DNA from: Gemmatimonadota bacterium
GTDB taxonomy: Bacteria; Latescibacterota; UBA2968; UBA8231
NCBI GenBank assembly: GCA_018673255.1
Contig: JABHDC010000083.1
Coordinates: forward strand, 1-32,967
Length of the DNA stretch: 32,967 nt
Direction: 5' to 3'
Within the stretch, counting starts at the first letter, position 1, and every line of letters starts with the position of its first letter. The position numbers and the translations under genes are program-made. Positions 9,876 through 32,967 of the stretch are shown here, piece after piece. Below the pieces are notes generated by a model. That model was not told where the DNA came from. It saw nothing but the letters and a program-made list of their open reading frames with translations, and did not search any database.

Positions 9876-11171
9876 TCATGGGACCAGGCGGTTCGGTGTC
9901 CTTGGCAGCAGCGTCGTCTCCCTCACACTGGGTTGGTCGAGCAGCACCATCAGCATGCGCGCGAGCCCAAAGCCGAATCCCCCGTGGGGGGGACAGCCGA
10001 ATCGGAAGAACCCCAGGTAAGACGCCAGGCCGTCGAGCCCCAGCCTCTTCTCTGTCGCCTGAGCTTCCAGGATTTCAATGCGGTGCTCCCGCTGCGCCCC
10101 CGTGGTGATCTCGATCCCCTTCCACAATAGGTCAAAGCTGCGCGTGAGCTCCGGCGCTGACGGATGTCGCATGTGGTAGAAGGGACGGACCGAGACCGGG
10201 TAGTCCGTGACAAACACAAACTCGTGTCCCAATTCCTCGGCCGCATGGCGTGCCACGAGTCGCTCACCGGCTGGATCGAGGTCGCCGCTGGCCGATGGCT
10301 CCCATCCAGGTTGCCGTGTCCGCGCAATCTCGACCGCCGCCGCGTGAGAGATGCGAGGAAAGGGAAGCGTCGGGACATTGACCTCGGTTCCTCCTGCGCA
10401 ACCTGACACTTCCTCCAACACCGCGTGCATCCAGCGTTCCTCGAAAACCATCACATCCTCATGGGAGTCGACCCATGAGATTTCGACATCGACGCTGGTG
10501 AACTCTGTCGTGTGGCGCGTCGTGAACGAGGGCTCAGCGCGGAACACGGGGCCAATCTCGAAGACACCCTCGAAACCCGCGGCGATGGCCATCTGCTTGT
10601 AGAATTGCGGCGATTGGGCCAGGTAGGCCGTGGTGTCGAAGTAGTCGAGGCCAAACAGCTCTGCTCCTGACTCACTTGCTGTGCCCATCAGTTTCGGTGT
10701 GTGGATCTCGATCAGCCCTTCCGCTTCCCAGAAGCGCCGCATCGCTCGCTCCACAAGCGTCTGTATCTCGAACACCCGCCGCATTTCCGGTCGCCGCAGA
10801 TCGAGATGGCGCCAGTCCAGGCGATGCTCGACCCCTGGTCGACTGCGGCCCGTGGTCTCCAGGGGCAGGGGCGCGGCTGCAGCACCAACGACCTGAAGCG
10901 TCTCCAGCACGATCTCCAGTCCTCCCAATCGCACCTGAGGATTGTCGATCACCAGACCCGTGACGACCACGGCGGACTCTCGAGTCAGATCCATCACGAT
11001 CGCCTCGGTGGGTGAACCTTCCCGCTCCGAGAGCACCTGCACTGACCCGGTGCGGTCACGAATCACAATGAACAGGCGTTCCTTGTGCTCGCGGATGGCT
11101 TCCACGAAGCCCTTCACGCAGACCTGCTGTCCTATTCTGGTGCGGAGTTCAGATACAGTAGTGCGTTCCAT
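9876..11171 (-). CDS. aspS: Aspartyl-tRNA synthetase, archaeal type (probably non-discriminating)
   Basis: 431 residues, the length of archaeal-type AspRS; it lacks the large insertion of the bacterial type. The N-terminal OB-fold anticodon domain spans residues 1-100 (VSELRTRIGQQVCVKGFVEAIREHKERLFIVIRD). Class II motifs follow: YLAQSPQFYKQM, then motif 2 FEIGPVFRAEPSFTTRHTTEFTSVDVE, then motif 3 GFGFGLARMLMVLLD, ending TLLPRTPNRLVP. It charges tRNA-Asp. Archaeal-type enzymes in bacteria are often non-discriminating and also make Asp-tRNA-Asn for GatCAB. From memory, the tryptophan linked to tRNA-Asp specificity in discriminating enzymes is not present in the GFVEAI segment. AAAGGA precedes the ATG at 11171. 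Expression is probably governed by the leader described at 11298-11450. Confidence 0.92.
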   Translation of the reverse strand: MERTTVSELRTRIGQQVCVKGFVEAIREHKERLFIVIRDRTGSVQVLSEREGSPTEAIVMDLTRESAVVVTGLVIDNPQVRLGGLEIVLETLQVVGAAAAPLPLETTGRSRPGVEHRLDWRHLDLRRPEMRRVFEIQTLVERAMRRFWEAEGLIEIHTPKLMGTASESGAELFGLDYFDTTAYLAQSPQFYKQMAIAAGFEGVFEIGPVFRAEPSFTTRHTTEFTSVDVEISWVDSHEDVMVFEERWMHAVLEEVSGCAGGTEVNVPTLPFPRISHAAAVEIARTRQPGWEPSASGDLDPAGERLVARHAAEELGHEFVFVTDYPVSVRPFYHMRHPSAPELTRSFDLLWKGIEITTGAQREHRIEILEAQATEKRLGLDGLASYLGFFRFGCPPHGGFGFGLARMLMVLLDQPSVRETTLLPRTPNRLVP

Positions 11172-11180
11172 CGTATGCGT

Positions 11181-11197
11181 CCTTTCGGCGAGAAAGG
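11181..11197 (-). promoter_or_regulatory. Hairpin covering the aspS ribosome-binding site
   Basis: On the minus strand CCTTTC, loop TCGCC, GAAAGG form a perfect six-base-pair stem whose 3' arm includes most of the aspS Shine-Dalgarno sequence AAAGGA. It could limit initiation. Function is inferred from position only. Confidence 0.4.
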
Positions 11198-11241
11198 CCC
11201 TCAGCCTGTAACGACCGCGAGCCCCCGAAGCGCATACAAAG

Positions 11242-11272
11242 AGGCCCACCGTCGATGTCCGACGGCGGGCCT
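11242..11272 (-). terminator. Attenuator terminator in the aspS leader
   Basis: On the minus strand AGGCCCGCCGTCG, loop GACAT, CGACGGTGGGCCT form a 13-pair stem with a single G-U pair, followed by CTTTGT. It lies 25 bases after the leader-peptide stop and 70 bases before the aspS start, so it ends transcription before the gene unless disrupted. The CGGCGG run in the last leader codons can pair with CCGCCG of the 5' arm, giving an antiterminator. Confidence 0.78.
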
Positions 11273-12883: not shown

Positions 12884-13771
12884 ATGAATACAACCAGAGA
12901 TATGGCGGCCGAAGTGACCACATGGGCTGCTGGCAATGAGAATGTGCAAGTGGTCCTGCTCACCAGCAGCCGCGCCAATCCGCGAGCCCCCGTCGATATA
13001 CTGTCCGACTATGACATCGAGCTCTACGTCGAGGACTTGCAGCCATTCCTGGATGACGGATGGCTGAATGCCTTGGGCGAGATCATCATCCGCGAGCCCG
13101 CCTTCCCGCAGACCAGCGAGGATGGCAACGCGGGGTGTATGGTGATCTTCGCAGATGCCCCCAGAATCGACTTCGGTGTTGAGTTGACGAGTGAACTGAA
13201 GAGGGTGCAGCAGGAGGGTGGCTACGAGCGAGACATCGGCTACCGCGTGCTACTCGACAAAGACAGACTCATGGAAGGGTCCGTGCCCCCAACGAACTCG
13301 GAGTTTGATACCAGTCAACCGACACAGGCCGAGTTCAGTGAGACTGTGAACACCTTCTGGTGGGACATCACCTACGTAGCCAAGTGTCTCGTTCGCGATG
13401 AGTTCTATTTCGCCAAGCACATGCTCGATGTCAGCCTCCACCATGATCTCCTGGGCAAGGTGATCTCATGGCACATCGGTATGGACAGCAACTGGAAGTC
13501 GAATCCTGGCGTCAATGGACGATGGTTCAAGAGGCAAATAGATCCAGGCGTGTGGGCCGACATCGAGACGACCTTCGCCGGCGCCGACCCACAGGACAAT
13601 TGGCGGGCCATGTACCAGACAGCGAAGGTGTTCTCGCGTCTCGCAACTGAGATCGCCTCGCGTCTTGGTTATCCCTACCCTGAAAAGCTCGAGTGCGACG
13701 TGACCCGGTATCTGAAAGACATCCAGGAACTGGGAGAGTCGGGTGCCCTGAACGCGGCTCCCGCCGTGTGA
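12884..13771 (+). CDS. ANT(6)-like aminoglycoside 6-adenylyltransferase family protein
   Basis: 295 residues, the normal length for AadE/AadK streptomycin adenylyltransferases. The NTase core is VVLLTSSRANPRAPVDILSDYDIELYVED (around 24-52), with the DxE metal site in SDYDIELYV. Later come DFGVEL (third acidic residue) and FWWDITYVAKCLVRDEFYFAKHMLD, and the family-typical end DNWRAMYQTAKVFSRLATEIASRLGYPYP. It would transfer AMP to a streptomycin-like acceptor or an unknown relative. GGGAG precedes the ATG. Its stop is one base from the convergent sigma-fusion gene, leaving no room for a terminator. Confidence 0.85.
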   Translation: MNTTRDMAAEVTTWAAGNENVQVVLLTSSRANPRAPVDILSDYDIELYVEDLQPFLDDGWLNALGEIIIREPAFPQTSEDGNAGCMVIFADAPRIDFGVELTSELKRVQQEGGYERDIGYRVLLDKDRLMEGSVPPTNSEFDTSQPTQAEFSETVNTFWWDITYVAKCLVRDEFYFAKHMLDVSLHHDLLGKVISWHIGMDSNWKSNPGVNGRWFKRQIDPGVWADIETTFAGADPQDNWRAMYQTAKVFSRLATEIASRLGYPYPEKLECDVTRYLKDIQELGESGALNAAPAV

Positions 13772-13772
13772 T

Positions 13773-15992
13773 CTATAGCCGTTTGGCCTTCTCAACCGCC
13801 TGTTCGATTGAGCCAACCATACGGAAGGCTTCCTCAGGCAGATCATCGAATTCACCAGACAGAATACGACGGCATCCGTCAATGGCTGCGGACAGCGGGA
13901 CGACCTCGCCGGGCTCACCGGTAAACATCTCCGTGCCGTGGAATGGCTGCGTGAGAAATAGATCCAGACGACGGCCACGGATCATGAGCCGCCAGGTCTC
14001 TTCCTCGTCTTCGGTTGCAGCATCGGTGTGCCAGAGCGAACCCGACCTGGGGACGGGACCCTCAATGACTTTCTGTGGTTCCTGAGCGTGTTCGTAGTAT
14101 CGTCGGAGGAGCTCCCTGGCATCCGCAATCTCTCGCCGATGCCCCTCTTCGATGAGATCGCCCAGCAGCAACTGCGATGTGGACTGCACGGGGTTGATGG
14201 CCGGATACAGACCATCACGCGAACGATTCCCATCCATTCTGATGACCGTGTCAAAGGCGCCCGAGGCGTCGCCATAGGGGACGCTGGCCAGACAGAGCGT
14301 TGTGACGGCCGACTCCGGTGTTGTCGACACGTTGGAGCGCAGGAAGCGCCCGACACCCGGTGCCGCAGCAACCCGACTGTCGACCAACAGCAGCACTTCA
14401 TGCCCCGCACTGCGGAAGGCGTCAGCCGCCGCGAACCCGGTCTCTGCCGCCTCCCTGTATGAGTCCTGATCCCCCAGCTTGGCAAGCACGTAGGCTGTGT
14501 GTTCACCCAGCAATCTGCCGTCGGTGAGCATCGTCTTCCATTCCCGGAACAACAGCTCGGGGTCCAGCGTTTGGGCTGCGACAAACACAATCCGGGCATC
14601 GAACTCGGCTGCAAGATTCCTGGCGATCTGCGGTACCACGACGGCAGTACCGACTCCCGTGCCTGCACTGATCGCATTGACACCGCCGCGTCTCACAGGG
14701 CAGAACAGATCGACCACCTTGAGCCCCGTCTCCAGGATCGGCGGCACCGGACGATCGACGGATGCGGGAATCAGCCGGGAGTCGCCTGAGGAGTCTCCTT
14801 TCTGCGGCCTGCCTTCCGCATCCAGTACATGCCCGAGGATGCCGTCACCGACCGGGACCTTCCGATCCGAACCCGAGAGTGGCCGCAGCCGAGGGGTTCG
14901 GACCGGGAATTCCGGCTTGCGTGCGCCCTTGGCGATCAGGTGATCGAGCAGTGCTTGCCGCCCCTTCAGCGCCGCCCAATCGGCTGCATTGCGACCCCGG
15001 TGGTCCACATCATCGATCTTTGCTCCTGCGGCCAACAACAGATCAACCGCCACCCTGTCATCACGCATGACAGCCCGGTGGAGCGGCGTCTGGTTGCCTG
15101 CAGGTCTGCCCACGTCGGCACCCCGATCGATCAGAAGTCGGATCGCCTGATGTGCGCCGGAGACGATGGCGTGGTGCAACAGACTCTCGCCCTCTGGCGG
15201 ATCCACGGGGGCGCCCCGGTCGATGAGGAGTTCCAGCAACTCGACATGGCCCGTCGTCGCCGCCCAGGTGGCAGCATCCATCCTCCGCGGAATGGCCTCA
15301 TCACCGGAGAACTCGTAGCTCTTCCTCAAACTCAGCAGTGACGGCTCGGCATCCAGAAGCCGAGTGATCGCCGCCACGTCTCCCTCTCTGAGGGCAATGA
15401 AGTAATCGACCCTTCGTGCGAAGCCATCGTCCTTTGACGGTCTTGCGCTCTCAATGTGCTGTTTGGCCATGCGGGACATCCTTCTCTCAAGTACTTTGCG
15501 AGCATCGAAGATCCGCTTCTTCACGGTGGACACGGGTAGATCCAGGAACGCAGCCACCTCATCCTGTGGTACTCCGTCCAGATGGAACAGCGTGAGGGGT
15601 AGCCTCTGGTGGTCGGGCAACTGCACCACAACGGCTTGCACAGCCCGCCGCAGCTCCTCCTTCTCCACGACCTCGAGAGCATCCGGCTGGGCAGCTGCAA
15701 CACCCCAGTCATTCAGCTCCACCATGGGCCGCTGCCGTCGCTTGTGACGGTCAGCGTGTTTACGAACGATCCGTCGAAACCATCCAGGGAATGCTGCAGG
15801 CTCCCGGAGCTGTCCCAGCGACTCCCAGGCATCGACAAAAGCGTCCTGCGCCACGTCGCGCGCATCCTCTGCTTCACCGAGCCAGGAGATCGCGCCGGCA
15901 TAGGCCACATCCTGAAACCGCAGGACGATCACCCCGAAGGCGTCCCGGTCTCCTGCCTGTGCGGATCGTACGAGTTCAACCAGTTCCATCAT
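13773..15992 (-). CDS. ECF sigma factor - ankyrin repeats - ATP synthase F1 beta-like fusion
   Basis: 739 residues in one uninterrupted frame. Residues 1-175 are an ECF sigma factor: region 2 with DARDVAQDAFVDAWESL and FPGWFRRIVRKHADRHKRR, region 4 with LPDHQRLPLTLFHLDGVPQDEVAAFLDLPVSTVKKRIFDARKVL. Residues 195-357 are about four or five ankyrin repeats (HVELLELLIDRGAPV, AIRLLIDRGADV, TPLHRAVMRDD, AVDLLLAAGAKI). Residues 378-739 align along F1-ATPase beta: VPVGDGILGHVLDAEGRP, ILETGLKVVDLFCPVRRGG, DGLYPAINPVQSTSQ, FLTQPFHGTEMFTGEPG and MVGSIEQAVEKAKRL. The beta-barrel N-domain is missing. Walker A is AGTGVGTA (443-450), so the catalytic Lys and Thr are Thr and Ala. The GER catalytic glutamate is not found. 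Walker B Asp538 (LLLVDS) remains. The ATPase part is therefore probably inactive and may bind nucleotide or partners to control the sigma part. No anti-sigma gene lies nearby. Confidence 0.9.
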   Translation of the reverse strand: MMELVELVRSAQAGDRDAFGVIVLRFQDVAYAGAISWLGEAEDARDVAQDAFVDAWESLGQLREPAAFPGWFRRIVRKHADRHKRRQRPMVELNDWGVAAAQPDALEVVEKEELRRAVQAVVVQLPDHQRLPLTLFHLDGVPQDEVAAFLDLPVSTVKKRIFDARKVLERRMSRMAKQHIESARPSKDDGFARRVDYFIALREGDVAAITRLLDAEPSLLSLRKSYEFSGDEAIPRRMDAATWAATTGHVELLELLIDRGAPVDPPEGESLLHHAIVSGAHQAIRLLIDRGADVGRPAGNQTPLHRAVMRDDRVAVDLLLAAGAKIDDVDHRGRNAADWAALKGRQALLDHLIAKGARKPEFPVRTPRLRPLSGSDRKVPVGDGILGHVLDAEGRPQKGDSSGDSRLIPASVDRPVPPILETGLKVVDLFCPVRRGGVNAISAGTGVGTAVVVPQIARNLAAEFDARIVFVAAQTLDPELLFREWKTMLTDGRLLGEHTAYVLAKLGDQDSYREAAETGFAAADAFRSAGHEVLLLVDSRVAAAPGVGRFLRSNVSTTPESAVTTLCLASVPYGDASGAFDTVIRMDGNRSRDGLYPAINPVQSTSQLLLGDLIEEGHRREIADARELLRRYYEHAQEPQKVIEGPVPRSGSLWHTDAATEDEEETWRLMIRGRRLDLFLTQPFHGTEMFTGEPGEVVPLSAAIDGCRRILSGEFDDLPEEAFRMVGSIEQAVEKAKRL

Positions 15993-16045: not shown

Positions 16046-16077
16046 AAAAAAAGGCGAGGCCCTCGCGGACCTCGCCT
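16046..16077 (-). terminator. Leader hairpin with seven T residues before the sigma-fusion gene
   Basis: On the minus strand AGGCGAGG, ten-base loop, CCTCGCCT, then TTTTTTT. It is a strong intrinsic terminator by sequence, yet it lies 54 bases upstream of the sigma-fusion start and downstream of a promoter-like pair. It should cut transcription before the gene, so it may be an attenuator. The flanking plus-strand gene points away, so it is not an end-of-gene terminator for a neighbour. Confidence 0.6.
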
Positions 16078-16185
16078 CGTCACCCACCTGCGGTAAGTCA
16101 CCAGAGTGACCCCGCACAGCGGTATTCTCCGCATACTCAGCGAGTCATAAACGGTATGCTCCGAGTAATGACCCCCTGGGCACAG

Positions 16186-16336: not shown

Positions 16337-17836
16337 ATGACCGAGAACGTGAGCATTCGACCACTGCAACTGGACGATGTCGAGGCCATCCACCGCTTCG
16401 CATCCGACGAACTCGTGGCTCGCACCACCACGACGCCCCACCCGTATCCCGAGGATGGAGCGAGCACCTACGTCAGACAGTGTATCGATGACTGGGAGAA
16501 TGGCGTCGGCTACTCCTTTGCCATCCTCGCCGGAGATGAAGTCATCGGTTCCCTCGGACTTGGGGCCATTGACCGGGATCAAGGGACTGGCCAGTGCGAC
16601 TACGCCATCGGTTCCGCTCACTGGAATCGCGGCATCATGACGCAGGCAGTGGCTGCGGCCGTCCGCTACGCCTTCGTGGAGCTGGGTCTGCAGACGGTGC
16701 GCTCAGCATGTCTGCAACGCAATCCAGCCTCGGGGCGAGTCCTCGAGAAGAACCGCTTCACCGAGACCCACCAGTTCATCTACACCCACGCGAAGTTTGA
16801 GGGCGAGCCGGCCCGCCAGTTCGAGATCCACAGGCATGATTGGCTTACCGCCACCAGCGATGCTGAACCTCTGGGTGTGATGGGTGGAACCGTCGTCCTC
16901 GCTGGGCACAATCCGAACTGGTCGCGAATCTTTGAGAGCGAGAGAGATACGATCCTGCAGCATGCCGGTGATCTTGTGCAAGCCGTCGAGCATATCGGCA
17001 GCACGGCAGTTCCCGGACTGGTCGCCAAGCCGATCCTGGACGTCGCTGTCGTCTTGCTTGCCGGGGATGGCTACAAGTCAGCCGTAGAGCGACTCACTCC
17101 TGCGGGTTACCTCGATCGAGGCGACAAGGGCGACGACGGTGGCTACTTGCTCGTGCGAGAGACTGCACCTCGTGTCAGAGCGGCTCACCTGCATCTCGTT
17201 GAGGCATCCGATCCACAACTCTCACAGTGGCTGGCCTTCAGGGATATCCTGCGGTCGAATCCCGAGGCGAGGCAAAGATATGCAGATCTCAAGCGTACCC
17301 TGGCCCGCGACCACGAGCTGGATCGTCAGGGCTATACGGCTGGCAAGGAAACGCTCGTGCATGAGCTGACCGCGGCGGCCTTGAATTCGGAGCACCGACC
17401 GCTTGTTCGCAAGGCAGACACACAGGATCTGGATCTGCTGGCTGAGATGAACCATCGGCTTGTCGTCGACCAGGGGAGCCAGCCACCGTCGATCAACATA
17501 TTGCGTGACAGATTTGCACATTGGCTTGAGACGGATGAATGGTCGATCCACCTGTTTCTGCTCGGTGACAACGTCGTTGGATATGCCGCCCACCAGACGC
17601 AGGCCGACCACTACAATCCTGATCAGGAAGTGGTATTCGTCCGTCACTTCTACATCGACAGAGACCACAGGCGAAAGGGGATCGGCACCACAGCCTTCGC
17701 TGCACTGCGGGACCACCTCGCCACGGATCTGCCCATCTCACTCGAGGTTGTCGCATCCAATCCCGATGGCCTACGATTCTGGGAGAGTCTTGGATTCTCG
17801 CCGTATTTCACCTCGCTCAAGCTGACGGCTGACTGA
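16337..17836 (+). CDS. GNAT - GrpB - GNAT triple-domain fusion
   Basis: 499 residues. Residues 5-170 are a RimJ/RimL-type GNAT (VSIRPLQLDDVEAIHRF, DYAIGSAHWNRGIMTQAVAAAVRYAF, NPASGRVLEKNRF). Residues 185-350 are a GrpB/UPF0157 domain with the family landmarks HNPNWSRIFESERD, EHIGSTAVPGLVAKPILDVAV, HLHLVE and YADLKR...GYTAGKE. GrpB has a nucleotidyltransferase-like fold and unknown substrate, and is elsewhere found fused to CoaE. Residues 355-499 are a second GNAT (HFYIDRDHRRKGIGTTAFAALRDHL, NPDGLRFWESLGF). All are usually separate proteins. The ATG at 16337 gives the canonical first strand. Its stop is six bases before the next gene, making it the first gene of a four-gene operon. Confidence 0.9.
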   Translation: MTENVSIRPLQLDDVEAIHRFASDELVARTTTTPHPYPEDGASTYVRQCIDDWENGVGYSFAILAGDEVIGSLGLGAIDRDQGTGQCDYAIGSAHWNRGIMTQAVAAAVRYAFVELGLQTVRSACLQRNPASGRVLEKNRFTETHQFIYTHAKFEGEPARQFEIHRHDWLTATSDAEPLGVMGGTVVLAGHNPNWSRIFESERDTILQHAGDLVQAVEHIGSTAVPGLVAKPILDVAVVLLAGDGYKSAVERLTPAGYLDRGDKGDDGGYLLVRETAPRVRAAHLHLVEASDPQLSQWLAFRDILRSNPEARQRYADLKRTLARDHELDRQGYTAGKETLVHELTAAALNSEHRPLVRKADTQDLDLLAEMNHRLVVDQGSQPPSINILRDRFAHWLETDEWSIHLFLLGDNVVGYAAHQTQADHYNPDQEVVFVRHFYIDRDHRRKGIGTTAFAALRDHLATDLPISLEVVASNPDGLRFWESLGFSPYFTSLKLTAD

Positions 17837-20547: not shown

Positions 20548-21762
20548 ATGTCGACCCCCACTCGTCGTCTCCCCGACTCACCCAATCTTGAACATCTGCG
20601 CAAGCAGGCCAAGGATCTGCAGCGCGACCATCAGACGGGTCGTGCCGAGGCCCTGCGCCGTGTGCGCGAATCTCTCCCGAAGCTCGTCGGCGCAGCCATC
20701 GCTGACATCGCCGTTGCAGTCATTTCGCGAACGGACGCCCAACTCGTCATCGCTCGAGAGTATGGCTTTGGGAGCTGGCCACTGCTGGTGCAGGCCATTC
20801 ATGCCCCCCAGTCTCCGGCAGGCAGTATGAGGTCTGCCATCGACCAGGGCAACGTCACTGCCATCACCGAAATGCTGCAGCAGATCCCCGACCTGCGTGA
20901 TCAGAAGTTTGACTGGACGGATCAGAAGGGCAGGCAACGCCGCATCACGCCGCTCCGTTATTCTCACGCGTGTGATCAGCAGGGCTGCTTCCGTGCCCTG
21001 GCGGCTGCCGGGGCGGACATGCAGCAGTTCCTCCTGGCTCTCTGGAACAATGCCTACAATCTGAATCTGTCCCAGGTGAAGCGACTTGTAGCACTGGGTG
21101 TTGATCCGAATAAGGGTATGGTTGTAGCGCAGACCCGCATGGGACCACGTCGCTACGACGTCGTTAATGCCCTGATCGAAGCGGGTGCCAGTTACGAAGA
21201 TGGGCCACGAATGGACATCCATCGAGGCGATCTCGACGTGCTGGAGAAACGGCTGCAGAACGATCCATCTCTGGTTCGTCAGCTCTTCTTCGAAGACTGC
21301 CTCGCAGGACAGGAGCCGATGTACCATCTCTCGGGCGAAATAGGCCCACTGAGAGGCGCACTTCTCCACATTGCCGCAGCGCATAACGATCTGGCCTTTG
21401 TGGAGCTCCTGTTCCGGCACGGGGCGAACATCGATGCACCTGCCCCAGACCAGAAAGACGGCTCAGGAGGCCAGACACCGATCTACTTCACGATTGGGCG
21501 TACGATGGCGTGGAGTCCAGGAGCTCCCGCGAATACACCGGCGTACGAAACGTGTTGGGATTCCTTCGAGTTCTTGATAGAGAAGCGGGCCGACCTGTCC
21601 TTGCAGGCCAGGTGTCTGGTCAATGGGACCATCCGCACAGTGACCCCACTGGGGTACGCGTTGGCGCATCGTGAATCCATTCGTCCACGCGCGCCTCGTC
21701 CTCAGATTCGTGAGACGGATCGTGAGATCGACAGACTGCGTGAGCTCGGTGCGCCTGAGTGA
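20548..21762 (+). CDS. Ankyrin-repeat protein with LRKQAK-type N-terminus
   Basis: 404 residues. Residues 8-90 are the conserved N-terminal module often placed before ankyrins in environmental bacteria: LPDSPNLEHLRKQAKDLQRDHQTG, then TDAQLVIAREYGFGSWPLLVQAI. Ankyrin repeats follow (ALLHIAAAHNDLAFVELLFRHGANI, VVNALIEAGASYEDG, RALAAAGADMQQFLLALWNNA), some degenerate. It is soluble and likely a protein-interaction scaffold. The ribosome-binding site AAAGGAGGT, seven bases before the ATG, is the strongest in the window, implying high translation. Related in repeat type to the sigma-fusion ankyrins and to the gene at the right edge. Partner unknown. Confidence 0.85.
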   Translation: MSTPTRRLPDSPNLEHLRKQAKDLQRDHQTGRAEALRRVRESLPKLVGAAIADIAVAVISRTDAQLVIAREYGFGSWPLLVQAIHAPQSPAGSMRSAIDQGNVTAITEMLQQIPDLRDQKFDWTDQKGRQRRITPLRYSHACDQQGCFRALAAAGADMQQFLLALWNNAYNLNLSQVKRLVALGVDPNKGMVVAQTRMGPRRYDVVNALIEAGASYEDGPRMDIHRGDLDVLEKRLQNDPSLVRQLFFEDCLAGQEPMYHLSGEIGPLRGALLHIAAAHNDLAFVELLFRHGANIDAPAPDQKDGSGGQTPIYFTIGRTMAWSPGAPANTPAYETCWDSFEFLIEKRADLSLQARCLVNGTIRTVTPLGYALAHRESIRPRAPRPQIRETDREIDRLRELGAPE

Positions 21763-32150: not shown

Positions 32151-32967
32151 TCAGGCAGTGGCGCCGGCCTCTTGCAGCAAGGCGGCCACCTTGTCGTGGC
32201 CGTAACGCTGAGCCCAGGCCAGTGGACGGGCCCAGTCGGCATCGCCCCCATTTGAGTCGGCGCCCCGGGTCAGCAGGAACCGGCACAATTCAAGCTGCCC
32301 GTAACGGGCGGCCCATCCCAGGGGCGTGCTGTGAAGTTGAGATTCGAGGGCGTCTACTTCGGCGCCCCCATCGACGAGGATGCGAGCAAACTCGACCACT
32401 TCCTCCACCGTGTGACCGTAGTCGCCCGGATTGCAGGATCGGGCGGCCAGGTGATGGAGAATCGTGAAGTCGGCACGACTCGTTCGGCTGTTACGCATCG
32501 TCAGTTCGAAACCTGCGTCGACGAGGCGTTGCAGATTACGCAGATAACTGCGCCGGTCCCAACCCTGGGTGCCGATCTTCAGATTGCCGATGCGCCAGCC
32601 ACGGATCGCCTGCTCCAGCAGGTTGAAGTGACGCTCGACCGGGATGGCTGTGCCATAGGCGAGTTCGTGTTGCACGACGGCCTCGTTCCCGGCAAGGATG
32701 GCGCTCCACATCAGCTTCTCCCGCGCCTCCGGATGAGCCTGCAGCTTTTCTGCCAGTGCTGCCAGATCATTGGTCACGCAATACGTCAGTGGGTCGCCCA
32801 CGGCGCCATGCAGGAACAGCAGGTCAGCCACCTCGACGTGACCGTGCAGCAGCGATTGCTCGATGGCGCTGCCGGATGCATAGATACTGGCCTGCGCCGT
32901 TGCCCCACCGGCCAACAACGCCTCAACGACCGCGCGATGCCCACGATTTGCGGCCAGCCACATGGGC
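32151..32967 (-). CDS. Ankyrin-repeat protein, 5' end outside the window
   Basis: At least 271 residues are visible; the frame continues beyond the right edge. Repeats seen: MWLAANRGHRAVVEALLAGGATA, SLLHGHVEVADLLFLHGAV, ILHHLAARSCNPGDYG, FARILVDGGAEVDALESQLHSTPLGWAARYGQLELCRFLLTRGADSN and PLAWAQRYGHDKVAALLQEAGATA. Spacer repeats are irregular. It is soluble and probably a scaffold, possibly with the same N-terminal module as the gene at 20548, which cannot be checked here. Confidence 0.85.
   Translation of the reverse strand, partial: PMWLAANRGHRAVVEALLAGGATAQASIYASGSAIEQSLLHGHVEVADLLFLHGAVGDPLTYCVTNDLAALAEKLQAHPEAREKLMWSAILAGNEAVVQHELAYGTAIPVERHFNLLEQAIRGWRIGNLKIGTQGWDRRSYLRNLQRLVDAGFELTMRNSRTSRADFTILHHLAARSCNPGDYGHTVEEVVEFARILVDGGAEVDALESQLHSTPLGWAARYGQLELCRFLLTRGADSNGGDADWARPLAWAQRYGHDKVAALLQEAGATA

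Follow-up and report, generated by a model that had tools for sequence, protein, structure and literature searches.

The stretch of DNA analysed here, called the window, comprises 32,967 nucleotides (contig JABHDC010000083.1 of assembly GCA_018673255.1, from a bacterium named as Gemmatimonadota and placed in Latescibacterota by the GTDB) and carries on its minus strand, at 13773..15992, a gene for a protein of 739 amino acids, P0001, in which an extracytoplasmic function (ECF) sigma factor is followed by ankyrin repeats and by a module related to the beta subunit of F1-ATPase. The gene is one uninterrupted frame that starts with ATG; frame 1 of the plus strand is interrupted by stops. The initial annotation, made by a model from the letters of the sequence, had described the same 739-codon frame and the same order of parts, and both are confirmed by Pfam families that each score above the curated cut-off, together with NCBIfam and a structure model. 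The sigma part covers residues 1-175 (15468..15992), with sigma2 at 24-88 (PF04542, 36.4 bits) and sigma4 at 116-166 (PF08281, 40.6 bits), and TIGR02937 gives 65.2 bits against a cut-off of 42.9. Regions 2 and 4 sit close together in this short N-terminal part, which is by its profiles an ECF sigma factor. A linker with the motif RPSKDDGF follows sigma4 (residues about 176-191, 15420..15467), and behind it lie the ankyrin repeats (residues about 192-358, 14919..15419), seen as helices in the model and by Ank_2 with an E of 3.3e-17, above cut-off, the best stretches being inside 199-330. They stand at the place that the beta-barrel crown has in F1 beta. The last part, residues 374-739 (13776..14873), consists of a nucleotide-binding domain and a C-terminal lever domain without the barrel; all these parts are on the minus strand.

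The relationship of the last part to F1 beta is seen in several ways. Pfam places ATP-synt_ab at 423-540, above the curated cut-off, and among the best 25 of 108 NCBIfam matches atpD has an E of 6.8e-43 and 147.1 bits in two stretches, of which the better, 580-739, reaches the last position of the model. This score is below the equivalog cut-off of 462.85 bits, and the best FliI model gives 59.2 bits. BLASTP aligns residues 378-739 with residues 77-460 of E. coli AtpD at 30% identity, and PF02874, the N-terminal beta-barrel crown, was not found in P0001 by Pfam, as expected from the initial annotation. Judged by these matches, the module descends from AtpD and has the fold of the nucleotide-binding and lever domains; the fold-match lists cover 406-739 only, and the folds of the sigma and ankyrin parts rest on Pfam. 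The details read from the letters are likewise right: the P-loop is the degenerate SAGTGVGTA (residues 442-450, 14643..14669), with T449 and A450 in place of Lys and Thr, the GER glutamate is absent, and the Walker B Asp is present as D538. The aromatic residues on the other side of the pocket have their counterparts, Y596 (14205..14207) for Tyr-332, F690 (13923..13925) for Phe-411 and F684 (13941..13943) for E. coli F405, which we take to be a pocket residue as well. According to a study of the F. nucleatum enzyme, Tyr-332 and Phe-411 make up its adenine pocket, and the E. coli numbers are identical (PMC6597759).

P0001 is not alone. A homolog search found 279 proteins, of which 120 were listed, giving 121 records with P0001, and 103 of these carry the F1 module by motif. 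Since full-length homologs at 71, 67, 59, 57% and lower identity keep the domain order, the fusion is neither a chance event nor an assembly fault, a doubt that had been raised from the start. One record, P0002, which bears the name Gemmatimonadetes bacterium, is identical to P0001 and possibly stems from the same assembly. Source names among the matches listed include Latescibacteria, Caldilineaceae, Caldilinea sp. CFX5 and Pseudomonadales, and the full-length protein lies on contigs of Gemmatimonadetes SI074_bin69 (L003), Gammaproteobacteria (L004, L009) and Chloroflexi MAG-171 (L006), some full-length homologs sitting on megabase-sized contigs. By Pfam, sigma, ankyrin and ATP-synt_ab are also present in P0115, an incomplete protein of Myxococcota that the F1 motif missed. 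Among sampled genomes, a match above a threshold of 1e-85, which excludes AtpD, was found in at least 1 of 249, at least 4 of 64, at least 4 of 400, at least 1 of 194 and at least 3 of 46, all of them lower bounds because most searches scored part of each genome's candidates. Variants occur: four listed proteins (P0083, P0087, P0094, P0120) have the F1 module without ankyrins in the Pfam annotation, P0008 has no sigma part, and among the genomes counted above G281, G421, G617 and G618 match over the sigma-ankyrin part only, with Pfam confirming ankyrins without F1 in G281. In Herpetosiphonaceae KatS3mg057 (L005) the protein is present as two open reading frames (ORFs). The Herpetosiphonaceae genome G002 has a sigma-ankyrin ORF and an F1 ORF 14 bases apart (L111, 6766-8975) with a Shine-Dalgarno-like GAGGTGGTG; in that assembly atpA, too, is broken in two, and the first hundred positions are absent from the atpD match, so the split is possibly an assembly indel, and as such an indel is equally likely, this two-gene version was not used as Rosetta stone evidence. 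The separate F1 ORF was folded as a single sequence, and its model, with a predicted local distance difference test score (pLDDT) of 36, was not used. No relative turned up in viral and genome contigs scanned with the single protein, or in viral contigs scanned with an alignment, and of 363 plasmid records with a match none covered 80% of the query, the five listed being annotated as F1 beta. In the viral contigs and plasmid records scanned, a phage collection lying outside the search, nothing points to a phage or plasmid gene. Taken together, these data support that a sigma factor with an F1-beta-derived and apparently catalytically stripped module is conserved as a unit in several phyla.

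What has been lost and what has been kept in the module was studied in an alignment of the 103 F1 modules and 10 AtpD sequences, with E. coli numbering including Met1. At the 187 positions that are invariant in AtpD (at least 90%), the median retention in the modules is 0.28. K156 is retained in 21 modules (20%), T157 in 3%, E182 in 10% and R183 in 11%. Half of the modules (50%) have D243, and every one of the 103 has a deletion of the stretch that contains R247; the functions of these residues are those known for F1. The complete set of K156, Thr or Ser at 157, E182 and R183 is found in none, and we infer that the module of P0001 is without ATP hydrolysis, or catalytically dead as it was first called. 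The adenine side looks quite another way. Position 332 is aromatic (F, Y or W) in 100 of the 103 modules and so is position 411, while position 405, which presumably belongs to the adenine pocket, is F or Y in 91, and 88 modules are aromatic at all three. In E. coli AtpA these three places are taken by R, M and S. In F1 beta the aromatics of the lever domain stack on the adenine ring and the P-loop holds the phosphates, as a review states (PMC9447477).

The module seems to have joined the sigma factor once. A tree made by a quick method from 46 rows, namely 34 fusion modules, the separate ORF P0124, 10 AtpD-like sequences and AtpA as outgroup, unites the 34 modules and P0124 in one clade with a Shimodaira-Hasegawa-like approximate likelihood-ratio (SH-aLRT) support of 96, long end branches being flagged for AtpA, P0105 and P0093. 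The first to branch off is P0120, which retains the barrel (PF02874, E 3.3e-14) and has no ankyrins, then come P0083 and P0087, also without ankyrins, and P0124; the remaining 31, three-part proteins, make up a clade (98). The simplest reading of this order would be that AtpD was joined to the sigma factor, that the barrel was lost thereafter, and that the ankyrins came in its place. The parts have also been inherited together, with distance-matrix correlations over 75 rows of 0.873 between sigma and F1 and 0.920 between ankyrin and F1, and 0 of 2000 permutations as high, which tells of inheritance as a unit and not of contact, since shared ancestry alone would suffice. Between two gammaproteobacterial copies the Nei-Gojobori ratio of nonsynonymous to synonymous substitution rates (dN/dS) is 0.106 for sigma, 0.111 for the ankyrins and 0.160 for F1, rough figures given a dS above 1. 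In the pair L122/L123, from the phylum of genome G001 and with one copy frameshifted, it is 0.104 for sigma and 0.093 for F1, the latter from 10 synonymous and 3 nonsynonymous changes; the ankyrin part has 0 synonymous and 4 nonsynonymous changes and so gives no ratio. As far as sequences tell, these ratios show the F1 module to be under purifying selection at a level near that of the sigma part.

The explanation that we favour, while holding it a little short of an even chance, is that the ankyrins and the barrel-less F1 beta module together form an on-board input domain that binds an adenine-containing ligand and controls the sigma part. The F1 module would be the input domain of a one-protein switch, and because the adenine side has been kept and the phosphate side is gone, our best guess at the ligand would be a compound of adenine that perhaps carries few phosphates or none. 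The review of F1 describes the lever domain of the beta subunit as closing upon nucleotide binding (PMC9447477), and ligand binding could move the lever domain of P0001 in the same way. The movement would then pass through the ankyrins and the linker to sigma2 and sigma4, so that the sigma part is either set free for RNA polymerase or held back from it, and a separate anti-sigma factor would not be needed.

Several points weigh against such an adenine-sensing domain. The lever of F1 closes by holding the adenine and the phosphates both, which this module could not do likewise, and the pocket aromatics may have been kept for packing, AtpD F400, with no pocket assignment, being equally well kept (aromatic in 97%). 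Position 405 is non-aromatic or missing in 12 of the 103 modules and varies even in true AtpD (F in seven, M in two and N in one of the 10). In 34 modules the P-loop reads TPL[SAY]G, which is rebuilt and more than mere decay, and with the phosphate side rebuilt a nucleotide may no longer fit. In a tree of the sigma parts (80 rows), weaker than the F1 tree, the F1-bearing ones do not form one clade and seven changes are counted, the starred branches forcing only one, so that an exchange of modules between sigma parts is possible. Lastly, the PS-x-F motif behind sigma4, found in 77 of 91 parsed F1-bearing proteins (11 were unparsed), had to be ruled out as a general signature: among the listed records that lack the F1 motif, mostly sigma-ankyrin proteins, only 6 of the 17 parsed have it.

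Another explanation would be protein docking, in which the ankyrins and the F1-beta shell bind a partner protein that frees the sigma part, the pocket residues being kept for the fold. We consider this rather unlikely, although there is something to be said for it: the ankyrin, LRR, HEAT and TPR modules found on this sigma type are repeats that typically bind proteins, ECF42 with TPR and ECF57 with WD40 are precedents (PMC8999054), and the phosphate site has been rebuilt in many members. What docking leaves unexplained is an enzyme core under near-sigma selection whose adenine side has been kept but not its phosphate side, and the four listed members without ankyrins speak against it too. It is improbable that the module is a decoy subunit that binds alpha, gamma, another F1 subunit or an assembly intermediate and so reports the state of the ATP synthase. 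The beta fold has been kept to the last residue, and canonical atpD was above the family cut-off in all 8 carrier genomes tested and atpA in 7 of them (that of G002 being in two pieces), but such co-occurrence says little when ATP synthase is general among bacteria. Insertion into an F1 ring is made less likely by the missing crown barrel and DELSEED loop, the latter, which contacts gamma, being unconserved across the modules and falling in a low-confidence stretch of the P0001 model (638-659). Y355, which we take to be the noncatalytic-site tyrosine at the interface with alpha, is retained in 1% of the modules, and a Pfam scan of 20 ORFs of the window found no atp gene. Of the idea in the initial annotation that the sigma factor carries its own nucleotide- or F1-sensing module, the stripped, F1-beta-derived module on a sigma factor thus stands, and nucleotide sensing is favoured over F1 sensing because the pocket aromatics have been kept (88 of 103) and the parts that contact the ring and gamma are lost or unconserved; a tie between gene expression and the state of the ATP synthase is unsupported. 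Slow nucleotide hydrolysis as a timer, in members that still have the P-loop Lys, is very improbable, as no module has the catalytic set together, the R247 stretch is gone from all of them and P0001 itself has Thr and Ala instead of Lys and Thr, even if K156 persists in a fifth of the modules, P0006 has Lys and Ser, and P0124 has Lys and an Asp at the Glu position. A purely passive F1 part, carried along as a neutral passenger, or a frame that results from faulty annotation or assembly, is hardly credible and is contradicted by dN/dS values of 0.09-0.16 (one pair having few changes, the other a dS above 1), by the full-length homologs in several phyla and by the co-inheritance, although the frame is broken between sigma and ankyrins in one close relative (G284, through a deletion between two direct 7-base repeats; its close relative G291 is intact).

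An ECF sigma factor with a regulatory extension is a known kind of protein, and it is the F1-beta-derived module that is new. A 2022 review describes how a soluble C-terminal extension can replace the anti-sigma factor, as in ECF41, ECF42 and ECF238, the extensions being TPR in ECF42, a cysteine-rich domain in ECF238/CorE and WD40 in ECF57 (PMC8999054). For the TPR extension of ECF42 a protein-binding surface has been proposed. P0001 is similar in that a putative soluble domain follows sigma2 and sigma4 in the same chain, is conserved in the homologs and has no adjacent anti-sigma gene, no anti-sigma family being found among the 20 window ORFs scanned. It differs in having ankyrins and an F1-ATPase beta module as its extension; SnoaL-like (ECF41) and TPR (ECF42) families are missing among its 11 Pfam matches up to E 1, and neither “ankyrin” nor “nucleotide” is found in the main text of that review. 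With AtpD it shares the fold of two domains and the adenine-pocket aromatics, but unlike AtpD it is without crown barrel and catalytic set, reaches 147 of the 463 bits that the cut-off requires, stands behind a sigma factor and has no atp gene among the scanned window ORFs. The mycoplasma F1-like beta proteins, MMOB1670 of gliding and MSC_0618, are also repurposed relatives of F1 beta; they give weaker profile matches to P0001, and a gliding motor chain (9io5_J) appears in its fold-match list. By name they are parts of a motor or an F1-like complex, whereas P0001 has a sigma factor attached and no apparent ring partner. MzaA of the MZA anti-phage system is named a sigma-70 family protein, and its profile matches some sigma-ankyrin relatives, with best stretches in the ankyrins and scores far below the NCBIfam cut-off; P0001 was rejected as an MzaA, having no PADLOC match to it at E 0.01, although among its NCBIfam matches beyond the best 25 of 108 its ankyrins may match MzaA too. 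No published description was found of an ECF sigma factor fused to ankyrin, ATP synthase or PheRS, in literature that did not extend to the 2021 ECF classification, where a group number may exist.

The same sigma type is found with many other C-terminal modules. The core of PheRS alpha stands behind it in Armatimonadetes and Planctomycetes (L018 9995-11260, E 4.5e-26; L028 10001-11266, E 7.7e-27; L027 77-1345, by alignment to the other two). The Arg of the GLER motif of such cores is retained in L018 and L027 and is Asn in L028, and it is possible, going by the domains, that these proteins are amino-acid-sensing sisters. Pfam further shows a nucleotidyltransferase (L021), a nucleotidyltransferase with most of UvrA in one frame of 1396 amino acids in Rubrobacter sp. 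(L016 2077-6267), which could be real or else a chimeric contig, a marginal FliM-like module (L014 9161-10339, 27.2 bits against a cut-off of 27), GNAT with DUF3471 (L012), a GNAT-like module below cut-off (L020), DUF1835 (L030), LRR (L107), HEAT (L023), TPR (L019) and runs of ankyrins (L007, L011, L029, L039, L125), and nothing matched behind sigma in L010 and L025. Of the 23 loci with modules other than F1, 15 have the PS-x-F linker 19-20 residues behind the sigma4 helix, and with modules so varied behind one sigma type and its linker, the C-terminal parts seem interchangeable; it is a guess that the linker passes on the signal. Genome G001 of Gemmatimonadetes has ten places with this kind of sigma factor (L103-L110), with open frames from 393 to 865 amino acids, four of them within one 43-kb stretch of contig C61, a local expansion. 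At the right edge of our window (32151-32963, minus strand) an ankyrin ORF has 78% identity across 269 residues with the C-terminal region of a sigma-ankyrin protein of 761 amino acids in G001 (L103); the source genome probably encodes here another protein of this sigma type, truncated by the edge. Pfam finds ankyrins, and nothing of a sigma factor, in a protein of 404 amino acids at 20548-21762 (plus strand).

The fusion gene is flanked by an ANT(6)-like gene and by a gene with GNAT and GrpB domains. The former (12884-13771, plus strand) is an ANT(6)/AadS-like aminoglycoside 6-adenylyltransferase homolog that stays under the equivalog cut-off of NCBIfam. It converges on the fusion gene, the two stop codons being one base apart. 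The latter (16337-17836, plus strand) is one ORF in which GrpB stands between two GNAT domains; it diverges from the fusion gene, and genes like those for NUDIX and 2'-5' RNA ligase come after it. On the sense strand, 58 bases before the fusion start, lies a terminator-like hairpin of 12 pairs and a T run (16051-16078, minus strand), a possible attenuator; Rfam gave no match for a leader RNA. Farther off (9876-11249, minus strand) a non-discriminating aspartate--tRNA(Asn) ligase is above the cut-off of two equivalog models. At six loci with ten neighbours tested there was no operon partner, and only PhyH recurs between loci (L110, L122); the neighbourhood of L112 has two MFS genes.

If the adenine-sensing explanation is true, a motor subunit of the ATP synthase has been turned into a sensor for transcription, with one origin in the tree, ankyrins in place of the barrel, the catalytic side lost and the adenine side kept. 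It would be a link from energy metabolism to promoter choice within one protein, in little-studied phyla such as Gemmatimonadetes, Chloroflexi and Latescibacteria. A bolder version, which we regard as doubtful but worth stating, is that the sigma factor uses a domesticated F1 beta to sense the adenine-nucleotide pool directly, with no anti-sigma factor or second messenger, and that it belongs to a class of ECF sigma factors with retired core enzymes (F1 beta here; PheRS core, nucleotidyltransferase, perhaps UvrA and a FliM-like domain in its sisters) in which the old substrate pocket would report on the pathway that it came from. The findings also point to a larger group of ECF sigma factors, of which no description was found in the literature searched, with swappable C-terminal modules, several of which are the cores of enzymes.
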